Notes under the pieces: model-generated
Told to the model about the DNA's origin: nothing
What the model saw: the letters and a program-made list of their open reading frames with translations, nothing else
Databases searched by the model: none
DNA from: Kineobactrum sediminis
GTDB taxonomy: Bacteria > Pseudomonadota > Gammaproteobacteria > Pseudomonadales > Halieaceae
Direction of reading: 5' to 3'
Assembly (NCBI RefSeq): GCF_002868715.1
Contig: NZ_PKLZ01000001.1
Span: 496,001 to 560,000, forward strand
Length of the DNA: 64,000 bases
Shown: piece after piece, positions 19,961 to 52,372 of the stretch
Position numbering within the stretch: position 1 is the stretch's first letter
Layout: the number at the start of each line of letters is the position of its first letter
Program-made: the position numbers and the translations under genes

Positions 19961-22894
19961 GTGTCATTTTGCCGGTGGCTGTTGCTGGTAACATTCGCGG
20001 TGCCCGCCCTGGCACTGATTCCCGAGCGACTTCCCAGCCAATACCTTTACGACCGCTATGGTCGGGAACAGGGCTTGCCCTCTGATACCGTTTGGGTTGC
20101 CCGCCAGGGCACGGATGACTACCTCTGGATTGGCACCAAGAACGGGCTGGCCCGCTTCGACGGCACCCGCTTTACCATTTTTGATAAAAAGAGTAATCCG
20201 GAATTCCAGTCGAGTGACATTCGCGATATCGAGGTCGCCGAAGATGGCAGCCTGTGGTTTGCGACCTATGGCGGCGGCGTCATGCATTTTGCCGACAACA
20301 CATTCACGGTAATGAACAAGGCGGACGGTCTCGCCGACAACGTCGTCCACGACATTTTCATCGGTCCCTCGGGCACCGTCTGGTTCGCCACGGGATATGG
20401 CATTTCGCGCCTGCAGAACGGCGAATTCCGCAGCTGGAATGCGACCGATGGTTTGGTTGATAATCGCACATTCCGCATTTATGAGGACCCCAAAGGAACT
20501 GTCTGGGTGGCCACACTCACCAACGGCATCAGCCGTTTTGATGGCGATGAGTTTCATAATTACTCTGCAGGCAGCGGTATTGATTCCACCCAGGCACACC
20601 TGTTTTTTGACGATCCGGAACTCGGCCTGATAGTAACAACCGTTACCGGCAGCACCTATCGACTGACCGATAGCGGCCCGGCCCTGCACAGCAATACGGC
20701 GTTACAAAGTGGCCTGCCCCTGCATTCCGCCGTGCGCGACCGCGATGGCAGCCTGTGGCTGGGCACCTACGGAAAAGGCCTGTGGCGACTAAAGCCCGGG
20801 GAGGAGGCACAACTCCAGTCCCTGCCTCTCGACAGCTCTCAACCCGGTTATGTCTTTGCACTAACCGAGGATAACGAGGGCAATGTCTGGGCCTCCACAA
20901 TGGATGGCGCGGTCAGGATCAAGGACAGCCCGTTTTTGCAATACGGGCAAGCGGAAGGGCTGGCAAACGCCACTTTTGTGGTTACCCAAAGCCAGGCGGA
21001 CAACGCACTATGGGCCGGTACGGAAGGCAATGGCCTGTTCCGTATCGGCCCGGACGGGGCAATCACTCAAATAACCACCCGGGAGGGGCTGTCCAGCAAT
21101 AATGTCTCTGCCCTGCTCGCGGAGCCTGATAACACGCTCTGGGTGGGCACCTTTGGTGGCGGCCTCGACCGTATTGCCAGCGACGGCAGTATCCGCCACT
21201 TTACGACCGTTGATGGACTTCCCGACAAGCATGTAATGGGTCTGCTGCGCGACAGCAATGAGCGGCTGTGGGTGATCACTGACGGCGGTGTAAGTTATCT
21301 GGACGACACGACCGACGGGCGCTTCAAACAGCTGGAGAGCATCCCTGACACCATGCCCCGACAGATCATGGAAGACAGCAGCGGGCGTTTCTTCATCAGC
21401 AGCAATAGCGGGCTATTCGTACTGGATGGTGAGCAACTACGGCACTGGACTCGAAAGGACGGGCTTGGCAGCGATCTTGTGACCACCACCTACGAGGACG
21501 CCGACGGGACGATCTGGATTGGCACCCGCGAGGCTGGCCTGGCCCGACTGAAAAATGGCGATCTTTTTTCATTCGACACCAGCCATGGGCTACCGCAGCT
21601 GTCGGTACTGGCCATACTGGAGGATGATGATAACAATCTCTGGATAAGCGGGGCGGGGGGCCTGATGACCGTCTCCCGCGACGCTCTGAACGCCGTTGCC
21701 AGCGGTGCTGCCGAGACCTTCAATGCGCGCCTGTTCCAGGAGGACGACGGCCTGCGCTCAGCCCAGTTCCTGGGGGGCTTTCAACCGGCAGGCTGGAAGG
21801 CACGGGACGGCAGTTTATGGTTTGCATCCAACCGCGGGCTGGTGGCCGTGGAGCAGTGGTCACCGACGGACACCAGAGCGCCCACCCGGCCCATTATCGA
21901 GCAAGTGAGGGTCAATGGCCGCGCAATACCATTATTAGACGAGCCGCTGGTGTTGCCGCCAGAGGGGCAGAATCTGGAAGTGGACTACACAGTCCCGCGC
22001 CTCGGCAATCCACACGATGTTCACTTTCACTATCAGCTCGAGGGTTTTGACCGTGAGTGGCAGCCCGCGGGTGAGCGTCGTACCGCTTATTTTACGGCGC
22101 TGACACCGGGTACAAAAACGCTGCGGATTGCGGCCAGCATCAATGGTGCCGGCTTTGACCCGACGCTGACTGAGCAACAGGCCGTTCTTCGCCTGCACCG
22201 GCGGCCCTACTGGCATGAGACCTGGTGGTCCAGGCTTGCGGCAGGACTCGCGGTATTGATGGCGGCAGTGGGCATTTACTTTTATGCAATACATCGCGCA
22301 ACCCAACGCCAGCGCCGGCTTGAATTGCTGGTCGACAGGCGCACTCGCGAGCTGCAGATTGCGTTGTCCCGGGTAGAAGAGATCTCCCGCATTGACGGCC
22401 TGACCGGGATCGCCAATCGCCGCTATCTTGATGAAAATATGGACAAAGCCTGGCGGCAATGCGCCGCCCAGCACGCGCCGATCAGCATCATCATGCTTGA
22501 TATCGATTTCTTCAAGCAGTTCAACGACAGCGAAGGCCATGTTGCGGGTGATAACTGCCTGCGACAGGTTGCCGAAACCCTGCAATCCGGCGTGTTGCGG
22601 GATGGCGACCTGGTCGCGCGCTATGGCGGTGAGGAGTTCCTGATTCTGTTGCCCGGGGCCGACACAGAGGCAGTGGCCGGCGTCGCCAGGCGTCTCCACC
22701 AGAAGGTGAGGTCATTGAAAATCCCCCACCCCGACAGCCGGATATCCCCCTACCTGACCGTGAGTATGGGTAATGCAACCGCCTGGCCCGCGGAAAAAGG
22801 CAGTCCCGACGAGTTGGTCCAGCGCGCAGATCGAGCCCTCTATGAAGCCAAAAGCGGCGGCCGCGACCAGGTCAGGACTGATCCGGGGCCCTGA
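19961..22894 (+). CDS. Propeller-sensor diguanylate cyclase (Reg_prop + Y_Y_Y + GGDEF)
   Basis: 977 residues from a GTG start. A signal peptide is followed by about a dozen two-component-regulator propeller repeats (variants of GSLWFATYGGG, LWVGTFGGGL, IWIGTREAGL), a Y_Y_Y domain ending LTPGTKTLRI, one membrane helix (about 755-780), a short linker helix and a GGDEF domain. RYGGEEF (889-893 active site) is intact, and an RDGD I-site lies exactly five residues before it, so it should make c-di-GMP under product inhibition. The large periplasmic propeller resembles hybrid sensor kinases that read polysaccharides or other nutrients; here the output is a cyclase. Confidence 0.88.
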   Translation: MSFCRWLLLVTFAVPALALIPERLPSQYLYDRYGREQGLPSDTVWVARQGTDDYLWIGTKNGLARFDGTRFTIFDKKSNPEFQSSDIRDIEVAEDGSLWFATYGGGVMHFADNTFTVMNKADGLADNVVHDIFIGPSGTVWFATGYGISRLQNGEFRSWNATDGLVDNRTFRIYEDPKGTVWVATLTNGISRFDGDEFHNYSAGSGIDSTQAHLFFDDPELGLIVTTVTGSTYRLTDSGPALHSNTALQSGLPLHSAVRDRDGSLWLGTYGKGLWRLKPGEEAQLQSLPLDSSQPGYVFALTEDNEGNVWASTMDGAVRIKDSPFLQYGQAEGLANATFVVTQSQADNALWAGTEGNGLFRIGPDGAITQITTREGLSSNNVSALLAEPDNTLWVGTFGGGLDRIASDGSIRHFTTVDGLPDKHVMGLLRDSNERLWVITDGGVSYLDDTTDGRFKQLESIPDTMPRQIMEDSSGRFFISSNSGLFVLDGEQLRHWTRKDGLGSDLVTTTYEDADGTIWIGTREAGLARLKNGDLFSFDTSHGLPQLSVLAILEDDDNNLWISGAGGLMTVSRDALNAVASGAAETFNARLFQEDDGLRSAQFLGGFQPAGWKARDGSLWFASNRGLVAVEQWSPTDTRAPTRPIIEQVRVNGRAIPLLDEPLVLPPEGQNLEVDYTVPRLGNPHDVHFHYQLEGFDREWQPAGERRTAYFTALTPGTKTLRIAASINGAGFDPTLTEQQAVLRLHRRPYWHETWWSRLAAGLAVLMAAVGIYFYAIHRATQRQRRLELLVDRRTRELQIALSRVEEISRIDGLTGIANRRYLDENMDKAWRQCAAQHAPISIIMLDIDFFKQFNDSEGHVAGDNCLRQVAETLQSGVLRDGDLVARYGGEEFLILLPGADTEAVAGVARRLHQKVRSLKIPHPDSRISPYLTVSMGNATAWPAEKGSPDELVQRADRALYEAKSGGRDQVRTDPGP

Positions 22895-41181: not shown

Positions 41182-42138
41182 CTAACCCGCTCTTTTCAGC
41201 GCATCTATCAATTCCTGCTTGTTCATCTTGCTGCGACCGTCAATATCCTTCTCACGGGCGCGGTCATACAGCTCATCCCGGCTGAGCGATTCCATGTTCG
41301 CCTTTGCATGTTCCTCAGGGGCAGGCCTGCCCTGCAAGCGTTCTTTCAGTACCTGCATGAGGTCGACGACGTTGTCTTGTTCTGTCGCTGTCTCGAAGTC
41401 CGGCTCGGCGAGGACATCTTCGCCCGTCTCCAGCTTGGTCGAAATACGTTCACGAACTCGCCGGGTGTCCCGGTCGGTCAACAGGGAGCGATCCAGCGTC
41501 TGCGAGTAGAGGGCTTTCATGGCGTCCTGTATCTCCCGCACCTGTTCCCTGGGGGGCTTTTCCAGAGCCGGCAGGCCGATCGCTTCAACGGAACGGATTT
41601 CATCCTGGAAACGCAATGTCTCGGCGCGCAGTATCCCGGCCTCGGCAATGATGGTGATCAGGTATTCCTTGTCACGCATTACAAAAGTCGCTACGCCTGC
41701 CTTGTGCTCATCTTCCATGCTCTTGGCCAATAGCCGGTAGGCCTTGGTTGCACTCGAATCCGGAGCCAGAAAATAACCGCGATCGAAAAATACCGGATTG
41801 ATATCTCCCCGTGGAACAAAGCGCCTGAGGTCGATTGTCCGGCTCTTTTCAGGAACGAGCGCCTCCAGCTCCTCATCTTCGACGATAACGAAACGATCCC
41901 GATCGACAGGGTAACCCCGGACTATTTCATCGCGTTCGAGGATCCTGTTTTCCTTCTCGCAGAAATACTCGCGGCGCAGCGGCGTACCCTGATGGTCGAC
42001 CATCTTCAGTGACAGAGACTTGCCGCGGTTTGCCGGGAACAGGCTGACCGGCAAGCTCACCAGGCCAAACGCCACGACACCCGACCAGAAGGACCTGGGC
42101 TGGAAGGAAGGCTGGTCATCATCTTTTTTTCTAGCCAT
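41182..42138 (-). CDS. ku: Ku-family DNA end-binding protein with SAP/Rho-N-like tail
   Basis: 318 residues. The Ku core is clear: SFWSGVVAFGLVSLPVSLFPA, REYFCEKENRILERDEIVRGY, VFFDRGYFLAPD and ATFVMRDKEYLI. The C-terminal 40 residues (MESLSRDELYDRAREKDIDG, then SKMNKQELIDAL) form a SAP- or Rho-N-like helical module that probably adds DNA binding. Bacterial Ku encircles broken DNA ends and recruits LigD. It overlaps the upstream ku gene by 8 bases and is the last gene of the four-gene operon. Two different Ku proteins here could act as a heterodimer, as in rhizobia with several ku genes. Confidence 0.92.
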   Translation of the reverse strand: MARKKDDDQPSFQPRSFWSGVVAFGLVSLPVSLFPANRGKSLSLKMVDHQGTPLRREYFCEKENRILERDEIVRGYPVDRDRFVIVEDEELEALVPEKSRTIDLRRFVPRGDINPVFFDRGYFLAPDSSATKAYRLLAKSMEDEHKAGVATFVMRDKEYLITIIAEAGILRAETLRFQDEIRSVEAIGLPALEKPPREQVREIQDAMKALYSQTLDRSLLTDRDTRRVRERISTKLETGEDVLAEPDFETATEQDNVVDLMQVLKERLQGRPAPEEHAKANMESLSRDELYDRAREKDIDGRSKMNKQELIDALKRAG

Positions 42139-42907
42139 GGCTCACACTTTTCAGGCTTGCCTCCAGCGCCTTGCCAAGATCTTCCGGTGTTTCTTCTGTT
42201 TTGCGCCTGGGCGCGCGCCTGATGCGGCCGCCCTTTTGCTTTTTGTCGATCAATTCCAGAACCTGATGGCGGTAATCATCCCGGTAATCCCCGGGTTCAA
42301 ATCGCGCCTCCAGCATACCGATCAGTTGGCGAGCCATCTCGAGTTCACGCTTGTCCAGCGGCTTACCGCCGGGTGGTTCGAGCTCTTCAGCGGAAACCAC
42401 CTGTTCTTCGTGGCGCAGGGATATCAGCATCAGGTACCCCTCGAAAGGACGCAACGCGCCCAGATACTCCTTGTTCCGCATCACCCAACGGGCCAGACCC
42501 TCCCGGTCCTGTGCCTGCAGCGCCTGTGTCAATGCCGCGTATTTGTCCTCGGCGCCATCAGGGCCCAGGTAATAGGGCCGGTCATACCAGCGATGGTCGA
42601 TAGCCTCCGGCGGCAGGAACGCGAGGATCGCTATCTCCCGGGACTTCTCCGGCTTCAGCTCTTCCAGTTCTTCCTGGGTCAGGATGACTTCTCGTCCCCC
42701 GCTGCTGATATAGGCGCGCCGGGTCTCGTTATAAGGTACGATTTCCTGCGTCTCCGGATTGACCATGGCTTGCCGGACGGGGGAATGATCTTTCTTGTGC
42801 AGCAGCCGGAAATGCACGTTCCTGTCCGCGACGGCGGAAAAAAGCTTCACCGGGACCGCGATCCCGCCGAAATGAATGACACCTTTCCATATCGCCCTGG
42901 CTGCCAT
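42131..42907 (-). CDS. ku: Ku-family DNA end-binding protein
   Basis: 258 residues. MAARAIWKGVIHFGGIAVPV starts the Ku beta-barrel; NETRRAYISSGGREVILTQEE, WYDRPYYLGPDG and WVMRNKEYLGAL are core motifs, and the C-terminus is lysine/arginine-rich (KKQKGGRIRRAPRRK), the usual bacterial Ku tail. The ATG at 42907 overlaps the stop of the small zinc-type protein gene by one base (TGATG), which fixes the start; the longer open frame reaches into that gene. Only the shared Ku core aligns by eye with the neighbouring ku product, so these are diverged paralogues. Confidence 0.92.
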   Translation of the reverse strand: MAARAIWKGVIHFGGIAVPVKLFSAVADRNVHFRLLHKKDHSPVRQAMVNPETQEIVPYNETRRAYISSGGREVILTQEELEELKPEKSREIAILAFLPPEAIDHRWYDRPYYLGPDGAEDKYAALTQALQAQDREGLARWVMRNKEYLGALRPFEGYLMLISLRHEEQVVSAEELEPPGGKPLDKRELEMARQLIGMLEARFEPGDYRDDYRHQVLELIDKKQKGGRIRRAPRRKTEETPEDLGKALEASLKSVSHG

Positions 42908-43137
42908 CAAATCGATCCCTCGGTCTGTTCGCGCCTGCAGTCGGGGCACAGAATGATTCCATGTCCCGCTTTGTCGTCGTAACACAGCATACACACGGAC
43001 CGGTCACAGGCGGTGCAGTAGGCCAGGGCCTCGGCGTGAACCGGTGCTTCACAGGCACAGCAGGACTCCGACCCGGGTGACAACCACCAGGAGAGATACC
43101 GGCTCGCAGTGCCCGCGGAGTTATCGTCGTCCATCAT
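42907..43137 (-). CDS. Small four-CxxC (zinc-binding-type) protein in the NHEJ operon
   Basis: 76 residues. Cys pairs at 26/29, 41/44, 49/52 and 64/67, with His34 and His59 between, give four CxxC knuckles, the arrangement of a two-zinc cross-brace or double zinc ribbon. The start ATGATG overlaps the ligD stop (ATGA), and its own stop overlaps the next ku start, so it is translated between LigD and Ku by coupling. I do not recognise a named family. Its position suggests a DNA- or protein-binding accessory factor in end joining; that is inference from context only. The second ATG (43134) is an equally good start. Confidence 0.7.
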   Translation of the reverse strand: MMDDDNSAGTASRYLSWWLSPGSESCCACEAPVHAEALAYCTACDRSVCMLCYDDKAGHGIILCPDCRREQTEGSI

Positions 43138-45686
43138 GATTTCTCCAGTCCCACCTGCCGGCGCATCCGCGAGGTGATCGCGACGCGGGACGCTTCATAG
43201 TCTTTCCACGGGTCCTCCCGCAGCGCACCCAGGCGGCGGCGAATATTGCTGATCGTGTACCGGTTCGAATTGACCCGGCTCGTCAGTTCATCCCATCGCA
43301 GCGGGGTAGCGACGGGCGCATTTTTTCGGGCGCGCAGCGAATACCGGCCTATGCTGGTGCTGCCTCGTCCGTTGCGTAGATAGTCGAGGAATATCCGCCC
43401 CTGGCGTTTTTTTTTGGCCATGTTCGTGGTCAGGTTCCGCGGATCATCCTGTGCGTGCGCCCTGGATACCGCGTGGGAAAATTGCTTGACCTCATCCCAG
43501 GTAGAGCCCGGCTTCAAAGGTACTATCAGGTGCAGACCCTTGCCGCCGGTGGCCTGCAGGAAGCTGGCCAGACCCAGGCCATCCAGGCGTTCGCGCAGGT
43601 CCATCGCAACCCCGGCGATCCGAGCCCAGGAAACATCCGGCCCCGGGTCCAGGTCGAATATGATGGTATCCGGCATTTCGATACTCTCGACCTGGCTGCC
43701 CCAGGGATGGAACTCCAGCACGTTGAACTGGACCAGCGCGATCACGTCGCTGATGGTCCGGACATAGACATAATCCCGCTCAGAGTCGTCATTTTCCCGT
43801 ATCGCTATCCGTGGCACGCCGCTGGCGAAGTTCTTGCCAGGGTGCTTCTGGAAGAAGCATTCCTGTTCCCAGCCCTCCGGGCAGCGCAGGAGCACAAGCG
43901 GCCTGCTCGCGAGGTGAGGCAGTATCCATTCCTGGATATCCTCGTAGTAACGGGCCAGTTCCAGCTTGGTCACGCCCTGTTCCGGATACAGGATCCTGTC
44001 CGCATGAGACAACTTGATACCCGCCACTTCCTGGTCCCCGCGCTTGCCGCGTTTGCTGCCCGCAGTTCCGCGTTCGATCCGGGCGGGCGGCACCGCCGGG
44101 CTCTCCGGCTTCGCCCTCACCGTTGCCGGGTCCTTGTCTTCCCGCAGGCCCCTGAAGACGGGGTGGCGCAGTACACCCGACCCCGTGCGCTCGGTGAATT
44201 CCACATCCACCACCAAGTTCGGTTCCACCCATCTGGCGCCGGTGCTCCCCGGCACTTCTGTTTCGAAAGGACATGAGTCGGTTTCCAGTTGCCGTAGTGT
44301 CCTGTGCAATTGATCCAGTTGACGCTGGGTAAAACCCGAACCCACTCGACCGACGTAGTCCAGCCCCTTTTTGCCAAAGGCGCCAAGCAGTAGCGAGCCA
44401 AACCCGGAACGAGCACCGGAGGGTCGCGTGTAGCCGCCGACCACGAATTCATCCTGGGCGGTGCACTTCACCTTCACCCAACTCCCCTGACGACCCGAAC
44501 GGTATCTGGCATCCGCGCGTTTCGACACCATCCCCTCGAGGCCCAGCTGGCAGACCTGTTCATGGAAGTCGGCGCCATGCCCCTGCACGTGATCCGAATA
44601 ACGCACCCGGGCAGTGAGTTGGGGCAGAGTTTGCAGAAGCTGTTCCAGCGTCCTCTTGCGCTCGAGCAGAGGGCTGTTTCGCAGGTCGTAACCGTTCAGG
44701 TAGAGGAGGTCGAACGCCAGGAAGACCAGCTCGCCGGTATGCCCGCGACGCCGGGAATTCGCGAGACTTTCCTGCAGCCTGCGGAAACTCGCGGCGCCAT
44801 TTTCATCGAATGAGGCAATTTCCCCGTCGATGAGTGCGCTTTGCACCGGCAGTGTCGCCAGAGCTTCGGCAAGTTCTGGAAAGCGTCGTGTCCAGTCCTT
44901 TCCGTTGCGGGTGATGATCGTCGCCTCGCCCTTGTCCAGCCATGCCAGCAGGCGGTAGCCGTCGTATTTGATCTCATGGATCCAGTCCTCGCCTTCGGGT
45001 GCCGTTTCAACCAGCGTGGCCAGTTGCGGCGAGGGCAGCTCCCGCAGCTCGGCCCGGCGGGCACGGTCAATCCTGGAGGGGTCCGGCACAGCTTTGTCGT
45101 GAGCGTCGACCGCTCGCTTGTTCTTCGGTTTTTCCTCGCGTGCGATCTCTTCCATGCTGCGGCCGGAAACGATACTCAGGTCATCCGGATTCAGTTCCTG
45201 GCCCGTCTCGTCCGTCCGCTTGATCAACAGCCAATCCCGGTCACCCCTGTTCCGGTCCGTTGGTTTGCCGCGCATGCGGACCAGGGTCCAGTGGCCGGTG
45301 AGTTTCGCCCCCTGTAGCTCGAAATCGAGTTTATCCTTGGTCGACTTGCCAAACTGTCGCCAGCGACCGCGGTCCCATAACATGATCGTGCCTCCGCCAT
45401 ATTCTTCCCGCGGAATGACGCCCTCGAACTCGCCGTATTCCAGCGGATGGTCCTCGACTTCTACGGCGAGCCGTTTTTCCCCGGGTTCGAGGCTGGGCCC
45501 TTTCGGCAATGCCCAGCTCCGCAGGACACCGTCCTGCTCCAGGCGGAGGTCGAAATGGTCATGGCTGGCTGCATGCTTGTGCATGACGTAAAGGCATTCG
45601 CCCGGTGAGGCCCCCTCCGAGCCTGAGGGTTCCGCGGTGCGGCTGAAATCTCGTTTGCTCCGGTATAGCTCGAGCTTCTCTGTCAC
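43134..45686 (-). CDS. ligD: Multifunctional NHEJ DNA ligase LigD (PE-LIG-POL)
   Basis: 850 residues. Domain order matches Pseudomonas LigD: 3'-phosphoesterase (about 30-160; YVMHKHAASHDHFDLRLE and WALPKGPS), ATP-dependent ligase (about 215-520; nucleophile Lys240 in EIKYDGYRL, then LIDGEIASFDENG, EGMVSKR, WVKVKC) and an archaeo-eukaryotic-primase-type polymerase (about 555-840; FDLDPG metal site and ATGGKGLHLIVPL). It trims, fills and seals ends held by Ku. The GTG at 45686 (VTEKLELYRSKRDF) is preferred to an 86-codon extension that lacks family similarity. First gene of the operon ligD - small zinc-type gene - ku - ku. Confidence 0.95.
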   Translation of the reverse strand: MTEKLELYRSKRDFSRTAEPSGSEGASPGECLYVMHKHAASHDHFDLRLEQDGVLRSWALPKGPSLEPGEKRLAVEVEDHPLEYGEFEGVIPREEYGGGTIMLWDRGRWRQFGKSTKDKLDFELQGAKLTGHWTLVRMRGKPTDRNRGDRDWLLIKRTDETGQELNPDDLSIVSGRSMEEIAREEKPKNKRAVDAHDKAVPDPSRIDRARRAELRELPSPQLATLVETAPEGEDWIHEIKYDGYRLLAWLDKGEATIITRNGKDWTRRFPELAEALATLPVQSALIDGEIASFDENGAASFRRLQESLANSRRRGHTGELVFLAFDLLYLNGYDLRNSPLLERKRTLEQLLQTLPQLTARVRYSDHVQGHGADFHEQVCQLGLEGMVSKRADARYRSGRQGSWVKVKCTAQDEFVVGGYTRPSGARSGFGSLLLGAFGKKGLDYVGRVGSGFTQRQLDQLHRTLRQLETDSCPFETEVPGSTGARWVEPNLVVDVEFTERTGSGVLRHPVFRGLREDKDPATVRAKPESPAVPPARIERGTAGSKRGKRGDQEVAGIKLSHADRILYPEQGVTKLELARYYEDIQEWILPHLASRPLVLLRCPEGWEQECFFQKHPGKNFASGVPRIAIRENDDSERDYVYVRTISDVIALVQFNVLEFHPWGSQVESIEMPDTIIFDLDPGPDVSWARIAGVAMDLRERLDGLGLASFLQATGGKGLHLIVPLKPGSTWDEVKQFSHAVSRAHAQDDPRNLTTNMAKKKRQGRIFLDYLRNGRGSTSIGRYSLRARKNAPVATPLRWDELTSRVNSNRYTISNIRRRLGALREDPWKDYEASRVAITSRMRRQVGLEKS

Positions 45687-46100
45687 GATCTGTGACCTCT
45701 TTCCAGGATTACGCCAGCTTCCCGGCTCCGGTTGCACCATAAACCTGGCCGTTGATAGAGCGCGCATCCAAGCTGCTACCCGGCAAACAGGATGCCTGGT
45801 GGTGCCCTGTCCCTCCACGGGAACGGATGCAAAAACAGGGCTGCTTGCTGTCGCTCGAAGAGCCATGCGCCTGTATCCGGCAACTTGAACTGTCCCGAAA
45901 AGCTTAGTTCGAATTGGCTGAAAATCAATCAGAGGTCGGGCCATGGTAGCTGACAGGGCCGTTATTTATGGACTATGAGCTTCGCAGCATATGGCTCACA
46001 AACCGCACGACTGCGGCCCTGTCCCCTGGCTTTATGGAGAAGCTCGTCGGCTCTACGCAGGCCGAGCTGTACACGATACCCAATCTTGTCAGTGCCGGTC
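45687..46100. other. Intergenic region between the NHEJ and kai operons
   Basis: 414 bases between the ligD start and the kaiB stop, both on the minus strand. Frames here (the ligD extension, and a plus-strand frame from 45968) show no family similarity and no good translation signals. It should hold the ligD promoter, but I could not assign convincing -35/-10 boxes. I see no clear terminator hairpin after kaiB. Confidence 0.5.
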
Positions 46101-46403
46101 TCAGAGCGCCGACAGAAAGTCTTTCAGGCTTTGCTTATCAGAGAGGTCTCCATAGAGCACGCGACGATGTCCTGACCCTTCTATGTGCAACAAGGCGGGC
46201 GTGGCGAAGATGTCGAAGCTGATTGCCTCTTGTGGTTCCCTTAGCAGGTCAATCTCGCGTGGCGGAGCGACGTCGATGCCAGTTTCGTCTAACGCTGCTG
46301 TCAGATTGAGATGAGCTCGTCGGGAACGGGGCGCCTCGCCGGTCACGAAAAGAATGAGCGGAGAGTCGTTATGCTGGCGTTCTGCGGGAAGCGGGCGGTT
46401 CAC
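46101..46403 (-). CDS. kaiB: KaiB-domain protein
   Basis: 100 residues. LILFVTGEAPRSRRAHLNLTAAL near the N-terminus, IDLLREPQEA in the middle and FATPALLHIEG, then RVLYGDLSDKQSLKDFL match KaiB (thioredoxin-like, fold-switching clock protein). The GTG start overlaps the kaiC stop by 4 bases (GTGA), so synthesis is coupled. In cyanobacteria KaiB binds the KaiC CI ring at night phase; in non-cyanobacterial pairs without KaiA it is linked to stress adaptation or timing. No kaiA is present here. Confidence 0.88.
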   Translation of the reverse strand: MNRPLPAERQHNDSPLILFVTGEAPRSRRAHLNLTAALDETGIDVAPPREIDLLREPQEAISFDIFATPALLHIEGSGHRRVLYGDLSDKQSLKDFLSAL

Positions 46404-48118
46404 TTTTTGGCCCCCCCTTCGTTGGGATCACGCCGTCGCACAATGTGTCGTTCATGACGATACACCTCATTGTCGATCGCCGACTCATCGTTGTGCTCGA
46501 CTTTCAGCTCTTCCTGCAGGCGTTCAAGGTCCTCCTGTCCCTGCTGGATAATAGAGCGGGTCTTGTCGATGTCCCGCGCCAGGCGATTCTGCTGGCGAAG
46601 GCGGTCCTTGAGCTGGCGTTGTCGTAGAGAGGCTTCCTCGCTTTCCTTCTGAGCGCGTGCCGTGCCCATCAGGACATCGCTGCCGTAAGGGTAGACATCG
46701 GCGAGTTCAATACCGTTGGTCGACAGGAGCATTTCGCGGACCTGATTCGAGTGGGCTGTTCCCCGTGACTTGACTACTGTCAGTGATCGATTGCGCTCTC
46801 CGCCAATGATCTGATAGCGCAGCACAATCCAGGTATCGGCGAGGGTCGAGGCATGGCTTAAAGTGGATTCGTTGAAGGGGTCATCGGCCTCGGATAGCGA
46901 GGTGATCATCGTGGTGATGCCCCGGATACGTGTCACGGTAAGCAGGCGTTCCAGGGCAAGGAAAGCACTATCGGCGCCGGAAGACTTGAGCAGGGCTGAA
47001 GCGGGGTCGATGACCAGGCAATCTGGCTGGAAATTATTAATCAGTTCCAGCATGGCCACATAGTGTTCCTCGACCAGAGCAGCCCAACTAGCCCGGGTGA
47101 GGACTTTCAAGTGGCCGCTGTCGATGGGCGACTGCAAGTCAATGCCCAGAGTGCCGACATTGCGCACGATCTGACGGGCGAACTCGTCGAAGCTGACCAG
47201 CAGGCCACGTTCGCCCCGTTTGGCGGCTGCCGCCAGGAAGGCCGCCCCCAGTGTGGTCTTGGACGTCCCGGGCTGGCCGGAAACCAGTACAATCGAGCCG
47301 CGATAGATGCCGCCATCCAGGATCTTGTCGAGTCGCTTGATGCCAGTACCGATGCGCTCCCCAGCGGCCGGAACCTCTTCGGTGACGATGGGCTCGGCGT
47401 AGGGAAGATGGATGCCGGCATCGTCGATCAGCATGGCGAGCTCATCGGGATTGTGGCGGGTGCCCCGGTACTTGGCGATGCGGAAACGCCGGTTGAGGCG
47501 CTTATCGACGAGGGTGCTGGATACCCGCAGAATGGTGGACAGCATGAACTCGATACCGTTGAGGTAATCCGGCCGAGGGTTATCGTCACCCATTTGCTTG
47601 CCGGTCAGCAGCAGGGAATACCGGTGCTCAATACACCAGTCGTTGAGCTGGGCGACCTGATCGATGGCCGTTTGGCTGTCCGGCTGGCGCCGCAGTAGCT
47701 GATCAATGCCGTCGAGAACGATCCAGGTGCCGTCGACACGCCTGGCACACAGGTCCAGCACGGCGAGCAAGCCCTCAATGTCGAAGGCCCCGGAGAACTC
47801 GGCCTGTCTCATCGATTGGCCGTCGATGATCTCACAGCGCGATGATTCCCGTAGCTTTGGACCCCACCGGAAAGCATCGGCGTTGCGCAGGATCTGTTCG
47901 CGCGACTCCTCGAAGCTCATGAAGACCCCGCCTTCCCCGCGTTCCAGGGCACTGGCGAGAATCTGCAGGCCGATGATGGTCTTGCCGCAGCCGGGTTCGC
48001 CGATTATCAGCGTAGCACCACCGGCTGGCAGGCCACCGTGGGTGACCATGTCCAGGTCGTGTATGCCGGTGGCGCGTTTGACCAGGCCGTGTTCTTCAGT
48101 CACATCGGTTTCGTTCAT
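46400..48118 (-). CDS. kaiC: KaiC-like double-RecA ATPase/autokinase
   Basis: 572 residues, two RecA/KaiC domains. CI has Walker A GEPGCGKT (40-47) and the catalytic pair Glu70-Glu71; CII has GQPGTSKT (281-288) and Asp311-Glu312 where cyanobacterial KaiC has two Glu. The dual phosphorylation pair is kept as Ser424-Thr425 in SHASTLADTW, followed by the ERNRSLTVVKSRGTAHS segment. The C-terminus is extended by a charged coiled coil (about 487-540) in place of the A-loop peptide that KaiA binds. AAGGAG precedes the ATG at 48118. Downstream of the GGDEF/EAL gene by 28 bases and coupled to kaiB. Confidence 0.92.
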   Translation of the reverse strand: MNETDVTEEHGLVKRATGIHDLDMVTHGGLPAGGATLIIGEPGCGKTIIGLQILASALERGEGGVFMSFEESREQILRNADAFRWGPKLRESSRCEIIDGQSMRQAEFSGAFDIEGLLAVLDLCARRVDGTWIVLDGIDQLLRRQPDSQTAIDQVAQLNDWCIEHRYSLLLTGKQMGDDNPRPDYLNGIEFMLSTILRVSSTLVDKRLNRRFRIAKYRGTRHNPDELAMLIDDAGIHLPYAEPIVTEEVPAAGERIGTGIKRLDKILDGGIYRGSIVLVSGQPGTSKTTLGAAFLAAAAKRGERGLLVSFDEFARQIVRNVGTLGIDLQSPIDSGHLKVLTRASWAALVEEHYVAMLELINNFQPDCLVIDPASALLKSSGADSAFLALERLLTVTRIRGITTMITSLSEADDPFNESTLSHASTLADTWIVLRYQIIGGERNRSLTVVKSRGTAHSNQVREMLLSTNGIELADVYPYGSDVLMGTARAQKESEEASLRQRQLKDRLRQQNRLARDIDKTRSIIQQGQEDLERLQEELKVEHNDESAIDNEVYRHERHIVRRRDPNEGGAKK

Positions 48119-48146
48119 CGATTCTCCTTGCAGGCGCATTCAATGG

Positions 48147-50645
48147 TCATTGGGCGCTACGCCCTGACGTCATTGAGTTTGAAGTGGCATCTGGGTGCAG
48201 GGTCAGGGGCAGTCGGGAATGCTTCTCGAGCAACCAGCGGAAGTCTTCCACTTCCAGTGGCATGCTGTAATGGTAGCCTTGGCCGATCCGGCATCCCAGC
48301 TCAAGCAGCACATCGCGCACGGCGGCATTCTCTACCCCTTCCGCAACTATGTCGGCCCCCAGCACCTGGCTGATGCCCAGGATCATTGAAACAATATTCC
48401 GGTTGAATGCGTTGTCCAGAATGCCTCTCACGAACCCCATGTCGATCTTGATTTCGTCGAAGGGATATCGCTGTAGGTAGAGCAGCGATGAATAGCCTGT
48501 GCCGAAATCGTCCAGGGATAGCTTCACGCCCAACTGATGGAGGTCATTGAGTTGTCGGTTCAACGTCTCGGATTCCTCGCTGAACACACTTTCCGTGATC
48601 TCAAGCGTCAGCGCCGCGGGATCGATACCATGGATTTCGAGGGCTTCTCGCACCTTCTCCGGGAAGTCACCCGGTCGAAACTGGTCCACTGACACGTTCA
48701 CGGACACACGGACCAGATCCAGGTTTGCCGCCTGCCACTCCCGCAGGTCTCGACACGCCTGGAAGAGCACCCAATCGCCGATCGGACCGATCAACTGACT
48801 CTGCTCGGCCACTGGTATGAACTGACCGGGCATCTGCAGGCCGCGATCCGGGTGCATCCAGCGGATCAGCGCCTCGCAGCCAATCATTGTGCCCGTCGCG
48901 AGGTCTACCTTGGGCTGGTAATGCAGCTCGAACTGGTCATCTTCCAGGGCCTGGCGAAGCTCCCTCGCCAGGTTGATACGTTGCTGGGCCCGTCGATACA
49001 TTTCACTGTCATAAAGACGGAACACCCCCTTGTCATGCCCGCGGTTCTCATGGAGGGCGATCTCGACCTCGTGTAGCAGGACTTCGGCACTGCGCTCCTT
49101 CTCGCCCAGCAGAGTGAAGCCGCCGTCTACAGCAATCTCGATAACAGTTTCCGAAAGCTGCACCGGCTGATGGAAGATGTCAGTCACTTTCTCGAGACGA
49201 TCATGGGGTGAAGATGCATGGCCACCTGGCAGCAGGACAATAAACTGGTCACCGCTTAAACGGCCGATCAGGGTGCGGTTCCAAAGGCGGTCTTCAAGGC
49301 GACGCGCCAACTCGATCAGCAAACGATCACCGATATGGTAACCATGTGCTTCGTTGACGTTGCGCATCTCCCGGATGTCCAGCAGGACAATGGTGTCTTC
49401 GGGGTTCCAGCCATGCTGGCCAGTGTGGCGCGCAAAGGCTTCGATGAAACCCAGCCGATTGGCCAGGCCGGTCAGCGGGTCCTGGTAGGCATGAAGCTTG
49501 AGTTCCTGTTCCGCCAGCTTGCGTTCGGTGATATCCACGTGCATCACCACTGCGCCGAGCATGCCTTCCGTTTCCTTGTCAGGGGTCAGTCGCGTCGCCA
49601 TCATGCGGAACCAGCGCGGCTGGTCCGGGGAATGGCAGGGATATTCGAGCGCGAAGCTGTCGCGATCACCCGCCAGCACGGACTGCAGTCCATCGGCCGC
49701 TTCGAACGCCTCCTCGGCGCAGTCGCCAATGACGTCACGACACACCGACAGGTAATTACTGCCGACGCCAAAGTCGGGATCCTGGTTTTCATTAGAGGTT
49801 CCGAAGTGCCGCCATTGGTCATTGACATCGACCACCTTGCCCTCGCCATCCAGCAGCGCAATATGGGCGGGCAGCGAATTAATCAGCGCCCTGCTGTTGG
49901 CCAGGGCGCTGGATAAGGCTTCGACCATGTCGCCCTGCTGGTCGAGCATGTGGTTGAAGGTCCTCGAGACGTCGGCGAATTCGTCCGACCCCGACACCGG
50001 GACACGAACGTCATACTCGCCACCCTCTACCCGGCGGGCAGCTTTTGAAAGCGCTTGAAGAGGGCCATTGATTCGCTTGAACAGGAGCCCGAAACCAACG
50101 AGACAGAAAACGCTGAATACGGTCGCCGCCCCGGCGAAGACCGCAGCGATCCAGTTTGCATCTCTGGCGACCTGGGCCTGATGCTGGATGATAACCTCCT
50201 CGAGAGCGCCAGTCAGGGCGATGCCGTAACCAGCGACCTGGTTCATAATGACCCGGCTGCGCAGGGGGATGGTCGGCTGGGCAGTATCGGCAGTAACCTC
50301 TGCGGCTGAGGCAGTGGCTGTCTCAAGGGCGTTGATGAGGTAGTCGATATTGCGGCTGGCGCGGCGCGCACTGGGAAATCGCTCGGTCATTTCTGACAAG
50401 GCCTGTTGCATCGACCTGGCTTGACCAAGGAAGGCTGTCCACAAGGCTGGATGAGGCTGGTTGACCAGGATGGCATCACTACCCACCGAGAGCGCATCGA
50501 TACGACCTTGTATTGCAATCAGCTCAAGGATCTCCTCTTGCTTGGTCTGCATCTGCTTGAGGCTATTAGTGCCGACAATCAGTAGTAGCGCCAGACCAAG
50601 CAGGCAGGCGATGATGCTGATCCGGGAAAGACGTCTGAGGCTCAT
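48147..50645 (-). CDS. Membrane receptor with HAMP, PAS, degenerate GGDEF and EAL domains
   Basis: 832 residues: membrane helix 11-29, periplasmic helical sensor 30-164, membrane helix 165-189, HAMP (190-240), PAS (250-372), GGDEF-like (385-540) and EAL (550-805). The GGDEF site is SGDQF (464-468), so cyclase activity is probably lost; the EAL site is intact (CEALIRW at 590-596, DDFGTGYSS, EITES, QGYHYSMPL), so it is a likely c-di-GMP phosphodiesterase. It heads the kaiC-kaiB operon, which suggests a signalling link. Its ATG overlaps the stop of the upstream decayed gene (ATGA) and has no clear ribosome-binding site of its own. Confidence 0.9.
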   Translation of the reverse strand: MSLRRLSRISIIACLLGLALLLIVGTNSLKQMQTKQEEILELIAIQGRIDALSVGSDAILVNQPHPALWTAFLGQARSMQQALSEMTERFPSARRASRNIDYLINALETATASAAEVTADTAQPTIPLRSRVIMNQVAGYGIALTGALEEVIIQHQAQVARDANWIAAVFAGAATVFSVFCLVGFGLLFKRINGPLQALSKAARRVEGGEYDVRVPVSGSDEFADVSRTFNHMLDQQGDMVEALSSALANSRALINSLPAHIALLDGEGKVVDVNDQWRHFGTSNENQDPDFGVGSNYLSVCRDVIGDCAEEAFEAADGLQSVLAGDRDSFALEYPCHSPDQPRWFRMMATRLTPDKETEGMLGAVVMHVDITERKLAEQELKLHAYQDPLTGLANRLGFIEAFARHTGQHGWNPEDTIVLLDIREMRNVNEAHGYHIGDRLLIELARRLEDRLWNRTLIGRLSGDQFIVLLPGGHASSPHDRLEKVTDIFHQPVQLSETVIEIAVDGGFTLLGEKERSAEVLLHEVEIALHENRGHDKGVFRLYDSEMYRRAQQRINLARELRQALEDDQFELHYQPKVDLATGTMIGCEALIRWMHPDRGLQMPGQFIPVAEQSQLIGPIGDWVLFQACRDLREWQAANLDLVRVSVNVSVDQFRPGDFPEKVREALEIHGIDPAALTLEITESVFSEESETLNRQLNDLHQLGVKLSLDDFGTGYSSLLYLQRYPFDEIKIDMGFVRGILDNAFNRNIVSMILGISQVLGADIVAEGVENAAVRDVLLELGCRIGQGYHYSMPLEVEDFRWLLEKHSRLPLTLHPDATSNSMTSGRSAQ

Positions 50646-51154
50646 GGATTAGTCGTTGGTTCGTGGGATGGGTGAGCCGGAATCCGGACGGGTAGAGGAT
50701 TTACGTCATGCAAGGGGGCAGACTCTATCCAAAAGAATGGCCGATCCAAGGGGGTAATGATGCCATTGCCCTCAACGGTCACGACCTCGTTGAGGTTATT
50801 AGAATAGGATATGCTCGCGATGATCATAGGGTCGGTGGATTCTTCAGCAGACCAGCGGGGTGATACTCATAAGTGCAAAATCTGCCTCTCCAGCGCGCAG
50901 AGCCTGCAACGTCTCCTTGCCAGTGGCACTGCGGTTGACTTCGATGTCCAGTCCATGGCGCCGGAAGCTGTTCTGCTCCACTGCGACCATAGTCGGTCGC
51001 CGAGGTAATCAACGTTGAAAAGGCGAAGGGGACCCTGGTAGCTCTCGTTGGCGAGGAGAGAGCCACTGCACATCGTGATGAAACACAAAACCAACAGCGC
51101 GATTCGTGTCCGGCACCCTTTTGATCTCCAACGCACTTGGACCGGAAAGTGCAT
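50642..51154 (-). pseudogene. Decayed periplasmic substrate-binding protein gene
   Basis: Read from 51154, the frame gives a signal peptide (LLVLCFITMCSGSLLA) and YQGPLRLFNVDYLGDRLW. The homologous sequence then jumps one frame to FRRHGLDIEVNRSATGKETL and QALRAGEADFALMSITPLV, and jumps again to WSAEESTDPMIIASISYSNN before a short tail. These are the start of an NMT1/THI5-like or phosphonate-type binding protein (mature length usually about 300), so two frameshifts and a missing C-terminal half mark it as a remnant. Its final stop overlaps the receptor start, so an intact copy probably fed ligand information to the GGDEF/EAL receptor. Confidence 0.7.
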
Positions 51155-51363
51155 CAGGATTTTAATACCCCAGAATATTCGAAAAATAGTTCTATAATAT
51201 CCCCGAAATCACGCGATGTCCAACATCGCTTGTGTTGACATCAGGGCAGTTGGTTGTCGTTTCACCACTGGCAGGGCGGGCAATCCCAGCGGAACGGACG
51301 CCACGAACCGATGCAGCCGAGCCTGAAGAAAGAGGCTGCCAAGCCTGTCCCCAAAGTGTGCCC

Positions 51364-52295: not shown

Positions 52296-52372
52296 TGGTC
52301 GGTGTGAGAGGATTCGAACCTCCGACCCCTTCCTCCCGAAGGAAGTGCGCTACCAGGCTGCGCCACACACCG
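52296..52372 (-). tRNA. tRNA-Pro (anticodon CGG)
   Basis: 77 nucleotides with encoded CCA. Acceptor CGGTGTG pairs with CACACCG, the D arm reads GCGCAGCCTGGTAGCGC, the anticodon stem CTTCC/GGAAG carries loop TTCGGGA (anticodon CGG, for CCG codons), and the T loop is TTCGAAT. Confidence 0.95.

Follow-up and report, generated by a model that had tools for sequence, protein, structure and literature searches.

In a 64,000-nucleotide stretch of the Kineobactrum sediminis genome (contig NZ_PKLZ01000001.1, positions 496,001 to 560,000; hereafter the window), a membrane receptor gene, kaiC and kaiB follow one another in that order on the minus strand, and comparison of related genomes indicates that this cassette is conserved, with a gene for a periplasmic binding protein in front of it in several relatives. 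Partners of kaiCB occur in two wirings, because a clade lacking a common N-terminal motif has its receptor 5' of kaiC while most other loci have a motif-bearing partner 3' of the pair, and the window has the rarer, upstream one. Our preferred reading is a KaiBC hourglass or switch of the Rhodobacter kind that is coupled to a phosphodiesterase of cyclic di-GMP (c-di-GMP) in the membrane, with contact and timing being what we infer. An earlier note on this DNA had placed the KaiC-KaiB pair in one operon with a membrane GGDEF/EAL receptor, and its coordinates and gene order were correct: the kai genes overlap (Table 1), and 28 nt separate the receptor stop from the likely kaiC start at 48118, which is preceded by AAGGAG.

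Conservation of the receptor, kaiC and kaiB

Scanning named genomes with the window's KaiC gave at least 551 relatives, of which the best 80 loci were kept (loci are numbered L, genomes G). Of these 80, 41 had a c-di-GMP protein encoded no more than 350 nt from the kai genes and in the same orientation, 17 a histidine kinase only, and one a PAS protein cut by the contig; no partner was detected in the other 21, six of which had less than 800 nt of contig left downstream, and kinases were sought with two kinase cores as queries, so that some were missed (the HWE kinase of L124, for one). A quick tree built from 92 KaiCs placed the window in a clade of 14 (Shimodaira-Hasegawa-like approximate likelihood ratio test, 100), and a c-di-GMP protein was directly 5' of kaiC in 14 of 14 members; for two of them, L041 (where the contig edge leaves just the EAL end) and L120, the label was assigned by hand. 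Because of this count, gene order gives good support to a functional link between the receptor and kaiCB rather than a chance association, and the receptor does stand beside kaiBC in related genomes, the opposite of what, by the earlier note, would have refuted the link. Besides the window, the clade comprises Halomonadaceae, Chromatiaceae, Ectothiorhodospiraceae, Wenzhouxiangellaceae, Methylohalomonadaceae, Rhodovibrionaceae, a genome of the window's order and a Trueperaceae metagenome-assembled genome that could be misbinned; many of the hosts are, judging by their names, presumably halophiles. The closest KaiCs, among the at least 551 matches listed from named genomes, were those of Halomonas species (85% identity to H. 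daqiaonensis). Reading of the open reading frame lists of the window, L036 (H. daqiaonensis) and L038 (H. urumqiensis) revealed that the flanking genes differ among them while the cassette is constant.

Of 348 genomes sampled evenly across the window's phylum, 58 had a KaiC match at E 1e-50 and 11 of them scored above 600 bits, a limit for "KaiC2-type" that was set after seeing the gap from 617.7 to 453.7 bits. A GGDEF gene was directly beside the kai genes in three of the 10 KaiC2-type genomes besides the window's (L116, L118 and L120), compared with 0.15 expected for two flanking genes (P 3e-4) or 0.29 for four (P 0.002), assuming one gene per kb; the neighbourhood stretches that we fetched covered 22 of the 68 KaiC matches listed, and L033 was one more. 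In another of these 10, L117, kaiCB precedes a PAS protein and then an open reading frame carrying an HD domain of family PF13487 (L117:8004-10858); this could be a c-di-GMP partner of the HD-GYP type, and the two frames are perhaps one frameshifted gene.

KaiC matched the KaiC ATPase model PF06745 in two stretches (257.9 bits) and carried two P-loops, GEPGCGKT and GQPGTSKT, making it a double-domain KaiC. The earlier statement that both ATPase sites are kept held for the P-loops and the tandem acidic pairs but needed qualifying for the second domain: the first (CI) has the P-loop Lys and Thr and the acidic E77/E78, while the second (CII) has D318-E319 where the solved chains aligned have EE, and S293 in front of its P-loop Lys. 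Across 83 aligned rows, the window counted, position 318 was D in 59 and E in 24, and the column of S293 was A in 47, G in 25 and S in 11. The Ser-Thr phosphorylation pair was present as described (S431/T432 in CII, with T426 too), S431 being found in 82 of the 83 rows and a T or S at position 432 in 70. The best solved matches were R. sphaeroides chains 8dba and 8fwi, in a HMMER alignment over residues 18-566 in which the C-terminal extension aligned into the R. sphaeroides coiled coil up to residue 566. KaiB scored 27.7 bits against the Pfam KaiB model (cut-off 27), far under the NCBIfam equivalog cut-offs, and was 43-72% identical to the KaiBs of L036-L047; its best solved match was Legionella Lpp1115 (4kun). 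No match to KaiA (PF07688), a component of the cyanobacterial KaiABC clock, was found in the window's genome, with the S. elongatus control positive, which agrees with the earlier note.

From its N terminus, the receptor has a hydrophobic segment (3-30), a periplasmic domain, a second hydrophobic segment (163-192), HAMP, PAS, GGDEF and EAL, and the Pfam matches bear out the earlier description of a HAMP-PAS-GGDEF(degenerate)-EAL protein. SGDQF stands in place of the GG[D/E]EF motif of an active diguanylate cyclase, and the EAL domain has residues of the EAL, N, E, DD, K, E, E, Q set at all nine positions that we take to be catalytic. With EAL intact and GGDEF degenerate, as also in the Halomonas relatives, the receptor is a predicted c-di-GMP phosphodiesterase. 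Within the clade, the GGDEF motif was degenerate only in the window, L036, L037 and L038 (SGDQF or TGDQF) and in L046 (GGDQF). Comparison of the window with L036 gave nonsynonymous/synonymous divergences (dN/dS) of 0.08/0.91 for EAL, 0.08/0.72 for KaiC, 0.14/0.66 for PAS, 0.19/0.79 for KaiB and 0.43/1.26 for the sensor, with dN below dS in every part. The periplasmic domain was modelled as a helical bundle (predicted local distance difference test score, pLDDT, 75) that compared with two sensors known for binding periplasmic proteins, LytS-XylFII at Z 13.4-13.6 and TorS-TorT at Z 12.4, but unrelated helical bundles gave similar scores; Foldseek with this model returned no match at E 0.001 or better, and sensor-model matches in 30 other sample genomes mostly covered the HAMP-side third only, with a few weak ones extending further.

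Directly 5' of the receptor, L038, L039, L040 and L043 have an intact gene for an NMT1-class periplasmic binding protein, and its frame overlaps the start of the next gene by 4 nt in six of six loci with an open frame (in L039 and L046, the receptor start was picked within a longer open reading frame). The L038 protein (L038:5383-6465) matched PF09084 at 75 bits and was nearest to TauA by sequence among solved structures (E 2e-6) and to SsuA and Thi5 by fold; only the class of its ligand can be read, as probably SsuA/TauA/Thi5-like, from a model with pLDDT 69.9 and TM-scores mostly of 0.4-0.5. The window retains a remnant of this gene, which the earlier note had missed: tblastn with the intact L038 protein aligned 57 aa at 51% identity (E 7e-13) and recovered a further fragment in a different frame (E 3e-7), the C-terminal half was not found, and the remnant was the sole match to this subfamily in the window's genome. 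L046 has a form without its middle, L032 (G004, another genus of the window's family) only the C-terminal part, before a HAMP histidine kinase, L036 a weak trace (E 0.004), L042 a 50-residue similar stretch (32 bits) and L037 none, L042 and L037 being excluded from the counts. To judge from these sequences, the gene has apparently been eroded or shortened on more than one occasion (window, L036, L046 and L032).

A PAS subfamily and an N-terminal motif among Kai partners

The PAS domain of the receptor was 37-79% identical to those of 45 Kai-locus proteins (E < 1e-18), and this one subfamily was present in both wirings, in upstream and in downstream partners. The best match to a profile of it was the Kai-adjacent domain in 11 of 12 chosen whole genomes (143-202 bits), eight of the 11 being themselves rows of the profile and three (L056, L074 and L090) not; the next-best matches elsewhere in those genomes scored 78-127 bits, and the twelfth genome (L047) gave none. 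Kinase and GGDEF-EAL versions interleave in the PAS tree, with seven changes of output label and many weak branches, and one output would thus seem to have replaced another behind a common PAS domain. A single Kai clade of PAS domains was not rejected on this weakly supported tree (approximately unbiased test, p-AU 0.33), and the strict form, a PAS domain exclusive to Kai, was rejected by matches away from kaiC. At E 1e-20, the profile hit 19 places in 17 of the 348 genomes, namely the window and 18 others (76-131 bits); 15 of the 18 were examined and none of the 15 stretches showed kaiC or kaiB, and the place in G168:C184 is 1.3 kb before a kaiB-kaiC pair (L128). A PAS model made from the upstream clade only gave higher scores to 30 of 36 other Kai-locus PAS domains than to the best of the 15 non-Kai ones; the 36 had been picked for their PAS domain and include two (L084 and L128) that do not directly adjoin kaiCB.

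The proteins encoded 3' of kaiB begin with a common motif of about 60 residues around GEVDAV (L..L....LE.L..GEVDAV...), which is followed by PAS. The GEVDAV pattern was found in 40 of 44 downstream partners (16 of 16 kinases and 24 of 28 c-di-GMP proteins), in none of 20 signalling open reading frames from L136-L150 and in 20 of 836 other open reading frames over 300 aa, and Pfam named no domain at the motif region in the eight proteins scanned. A profile of 21 motif copies (A7; 20 from the 80 loci and one from L124) matched 10 of the 348 genomes at E 1e-5, a threshold at which weaker copies would be missed. Nine of these were KaiC2-type, each with the motif just beyond kaiC-kaiB; one of them, G335 (= L124), had supplied a row of the profile, and the other eight may include species of the named rows. 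The tenth, G163, gave a partial match (2.5e-6) beside remnants of kaiC and kaiB; at this place (L169:5655-5944), both genes are reduced to fragments next to the surviving match. The KaiC2-type genomes without the motif were the window's and G187, the two that belong to the upstream clade. Fisher's exact test on 9 of 11 versus 1 of 337 gave P 3e-15, a value that treats genomes as independent and uses a grouping made after seeing the data. A second sample of 387 genomes of G275's class, some common to the first, gave three further matches, all directly after kaiC and kaiB, so that across both samples (348 + 387) 13 of 13 distinct motif genomes have the motif beside kaiCB or a kaiCB remnant.

Among 91 Kai loci (L032 and L036-L125), 68 had the motif, and 68 of 70 matches started within 800 nt of kaiB or kaiC, the exceptions being L076, where another copy of the partner lies 5.5 kb further on, and L060, where the match is in an upstream kinase. 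Among the 23 motif-free loci are the 13 members of the upstream clade other than the window, although the contigs of L037 and L045 end 3 and 653 nt beyond kaiB, too soon to judge; four with an upstream c-di-GMP gene (L051, L059, L069 and L095); and L049, L050, L079, L091, L096 and L101. L116 (G131) has the motif and an upstream c-di-GMP gene together. Contigs with the motif were labelled Pseudomonadota, Cyanobacteriota, Bacteroidota, Acidobacteriota and Methanoperedens.

Layout of the locus and neighbouring genes

The best promoter-like site on the strand (10 of 12 positions) is 5' of the whole gene set (Table 1) and is overlapped by a 17-nt palindrome. Weaker sites (9/12) were found within the receptor gene (50216 and 48418) and within kaiC (48031 and 46575), and a search for terminator-like sites between receptor, kaiC and kaiB found none. 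A conserved promoter in front of the cassette was not borne out in relatives, as the same rule gave none in L037, L038, L039, L040 and L043 and a weaker one in L036. A kaiC start at 48139, which would lengthen the open reading frame and leave 7 nt after the receptor, is less likely than 48118.

Table 1. Features of the receptor-kaiC-kaiB locus in window coordinates.
Feature	Position	Strand	Remarks
Membrane receptor gene	48147..50645	-	832 aa; Pfam HAMP, PAS_4, GGDEF, EAL
PAS domain of the receptor (subfamily common to other Kai-linked histidine kinases and GGDEF-EAL proteins)	49512..49910	-	
EAL domain of the receptor	48258..48965	-	Checked catalytic residues all present; lowest dN/dS among receptor parts
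kaiC	46400..48118	-	Two ATPase domains and a C-terminal tail aligning with the R. sphaeroides coiled coil
kaiB	46101..46403	-	Start overlaps kaiC stop (GTGA)
Remnant of NMT1/SsuA-like periplasmic binding protein gene (N-terminal half, frame-shifted)	50681..51160	-	tblastn
Promoter-like site TGGACA-17-TATTAT	51194..51222	-	Consensus match only, 10/12; upstream of the binding protein remnant

Directly 3' of kaiB, on the same strand, are two tandem Ku genes (41182-42138 and 42131-42994, both PF02735) and what reads as a LigD-like ligase open reading frame (43134-45944), which with the duplicated Ku makes an end-joining repair set. Elsewhere in the window, 19961-22894 encodes a large two-component-propeller sensor with a C-terminal GGDEF domain, and the genome as a whole has 27 GGDEF matches. 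In the 14 loci scanned for tRNA genes, Kai cassettes were less than 500 bp from one in L036 (L036:5858-5933), L043 (L043:11144-11219) and L120 (L120:3504-3580), for Thr, Glu and Val, and the window's cassette was about 1.1 kb from tRNA-Pro (52296-52372). Together with the differing flanks, this proximity hints at mobility of the cassette.

Known systems, proposed mechanism and alternatives

A genome paper on Ramlibacter (PMC3164672, 2011) reported that outside the cyanobacteria, in almost every kaiC-kaiB cluster, the next gene downstream of kaiC or kaiB encodes a histidine kinase or a GGDEF/EAL protein, and the legends to its supporting information name a PAS_2PAC_GGDEF_EAL protein. A c-di-GMP protein in a Kai operon is thus prior art since 2011, and the novelty implied by the earlier note falls away, this being one of the two usual neighbours already described. 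Those operons resemble the window's in the clustering of kaiC and kaiB, the two phosphorylatable KaiC residues and the c-di-GMP or kinase neighbour; their partner, however, is immediately downstream, whereas that of the window is upstream, membrane-bound with HAMP and free of the N-terminal motif, and in relatives its gene is overlapped by that of the binding protein. The accessible text of PMC3164672 contains no membrane receptor 5' of kaiC, binding protein gene or partner motif, and a search of the open-licence literature, as far as its texts were accessible, yielded no report of any of the three.

In R. sphaeroides, KaiBC is an ATP/ADP-driven hourglass with a coiled-coil regulator, according to PMC10076222 (8DBA, 8FWI and 8FWJ). 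The window's system is alike in that its KaiC best matches these chains into the C-terminal coiled coil and KaiA was not found in its genome. It differs in its phosphosites, Ser-Thr as opposed to S413/S414, and in its partner, a predicted phosphodiesterase receptor as opposed to the PAS histidine kinase of kaiC-B-PAS/HK (PMC4794148). The kai operon of Legionella pneumophila, whose Lpp1115 is the best solved match of the window's KaiB, is said (in work attributed to Loza-Correa, 2014) to pair kaiBC with a co-transcribed third gene. NspS-MbaA of Vibrio cholerae (PMC8967002) joins a periplasmic binding protein to an inner-membrane GGDEF-EAL receptor, the layout found in L038, L039, L040 and L043; there the binding protein is of the polyamine class, whereas here it is of the NMT1/SsuA class, kaiCB is attached, and the window has only the broken remnant in place of an intact binding protein coupled to the receptor.

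We consider the chance a little better than even that the operon couples a KaiBC module, acting as a timer or switch, to a single membrane-bound c-di-GMP phosphodiesterase, with contact and timing as the putative parts of this reading. The output ends (histidine kinase, GGDEF-EAL, or PAS then an HD open reading frame) are swapped behind kaiCB and the common PAS domain or motif, and therefore the partners fit proteins that serve Kai. KaiC, like the KaiA-independent coiled-coil KaiC of Rhodobacter, would cycle or switch with ATP/ADP and phosphorylation; KaiB binding and the state of KaiC would alter receptor output through the PAS domain, and this would alter how much c-di-GMP is hydrolysed near the membrane. 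A periplasmic ligand on the SsuA/TauA-like protein of relatives would set the same receptor from outside, while in the window, where that input is lost, the receptor would run as a phosphodiesterase gated from the cytoplasm; in the NspS-MbaA case, loss of NspS gives constitutive phosphodiesterase activity (PMC8967002). The suggestion of the earlier note that the Kai pair and a membrane signal share an output, for example as a timer or stress switch, remains an inference. More tentatively, and at somewhat less than an even chance, the N-terminal motif may be a docking or read-out element of KaiB/KaiC whatever the partner's output, in which case the window's clade would have given the motif up and would couple KaiBC via the shared PAS domain to a membrane phosphodiesterase, gated by a binding protein in several relatives, as a second, independent wiring to c-di-GMP.

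Several observations weigh against this wiring to a phosphodiesterase. Lower-scoring members of the PAS subfamily are found in proteins encoded away from kaiC; the motif that marks most Kai partners is missing from the window's genome at E 1e-5; and GGDEF is kept in L042-L045 and L047, with GGDEL in L039 and AGDEF in L040. The sensor fold, as modelled, is a common helical bundle, and the promoter-like site at 48418-48391 within the receptor gene could drive kaiCB on its own transcript. Finally, Legionella KaiB and KaiC, the former being the best solved match of the window's KaiB, reportedly do not interact.

Reversing the direction, the receptor might be an input, with a periplasmic or cytoplasmic signal altering local c-di-GMP or receptor shape to set KaiC phosphorylation or KaiB binding while the Kai output lies elsewhere. 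Its gene comes first in the operon and carries a sensor, HAMP and, in relatives, a binding protein, and phosphodiesterase induction lengthens the circadian period in S. elongatus (PMC13001216); yet according to the same source c-di-GMP left KaiB-KaiC binding unaffected and did not consistently alter KaiC phosphorylation in vitro, and enzymatic output ends (EAL, kinase, HD) are the variable part among Kai partners, which fits effectors better, so that we regard an input role as unlikely. We give just as little weight to co-expression only, whereby KaiBC would act in stress or redox responses, as has been suggested for Legionella, and the phosphodiesterase would simply belong to the same regulon, the proteins never making contact. 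The likeness of the window's KaiB to Lpp1115 favours this possibility, as does the link of Legionella KaiC2 to the stress response (PMC5520375), whereas several families retain the cluster with little space between its genes or with overlaps and the best PAS match is Kai-adjacent in nearly all chosen genomes. Chance neighbours moved together by recent transfer are very improbable: double-domain KaiC is patchy at this level (its own genome and G004 among 58 genomes) and the proximity of three of the 13 non-window clade loci to three different tRNA genes suggests mobility, but the clade count, the GGDEF neighbours in the 348-genome sample and dN below dS throughout the operon disfavour this explanation.

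A predicted c-di-GMP phosphodiesterase as the Kai partner would offer a measurable read-out, c-di-GMP over time in kai deletions of Halomonas relatives, and the near-exclusive motif of downstream partners provides a tag by which Kai output proteins can be searched for and a defined target for mutation. Both bear on how non-cyanobacterial KaiBC systems reach the rest of the cell.

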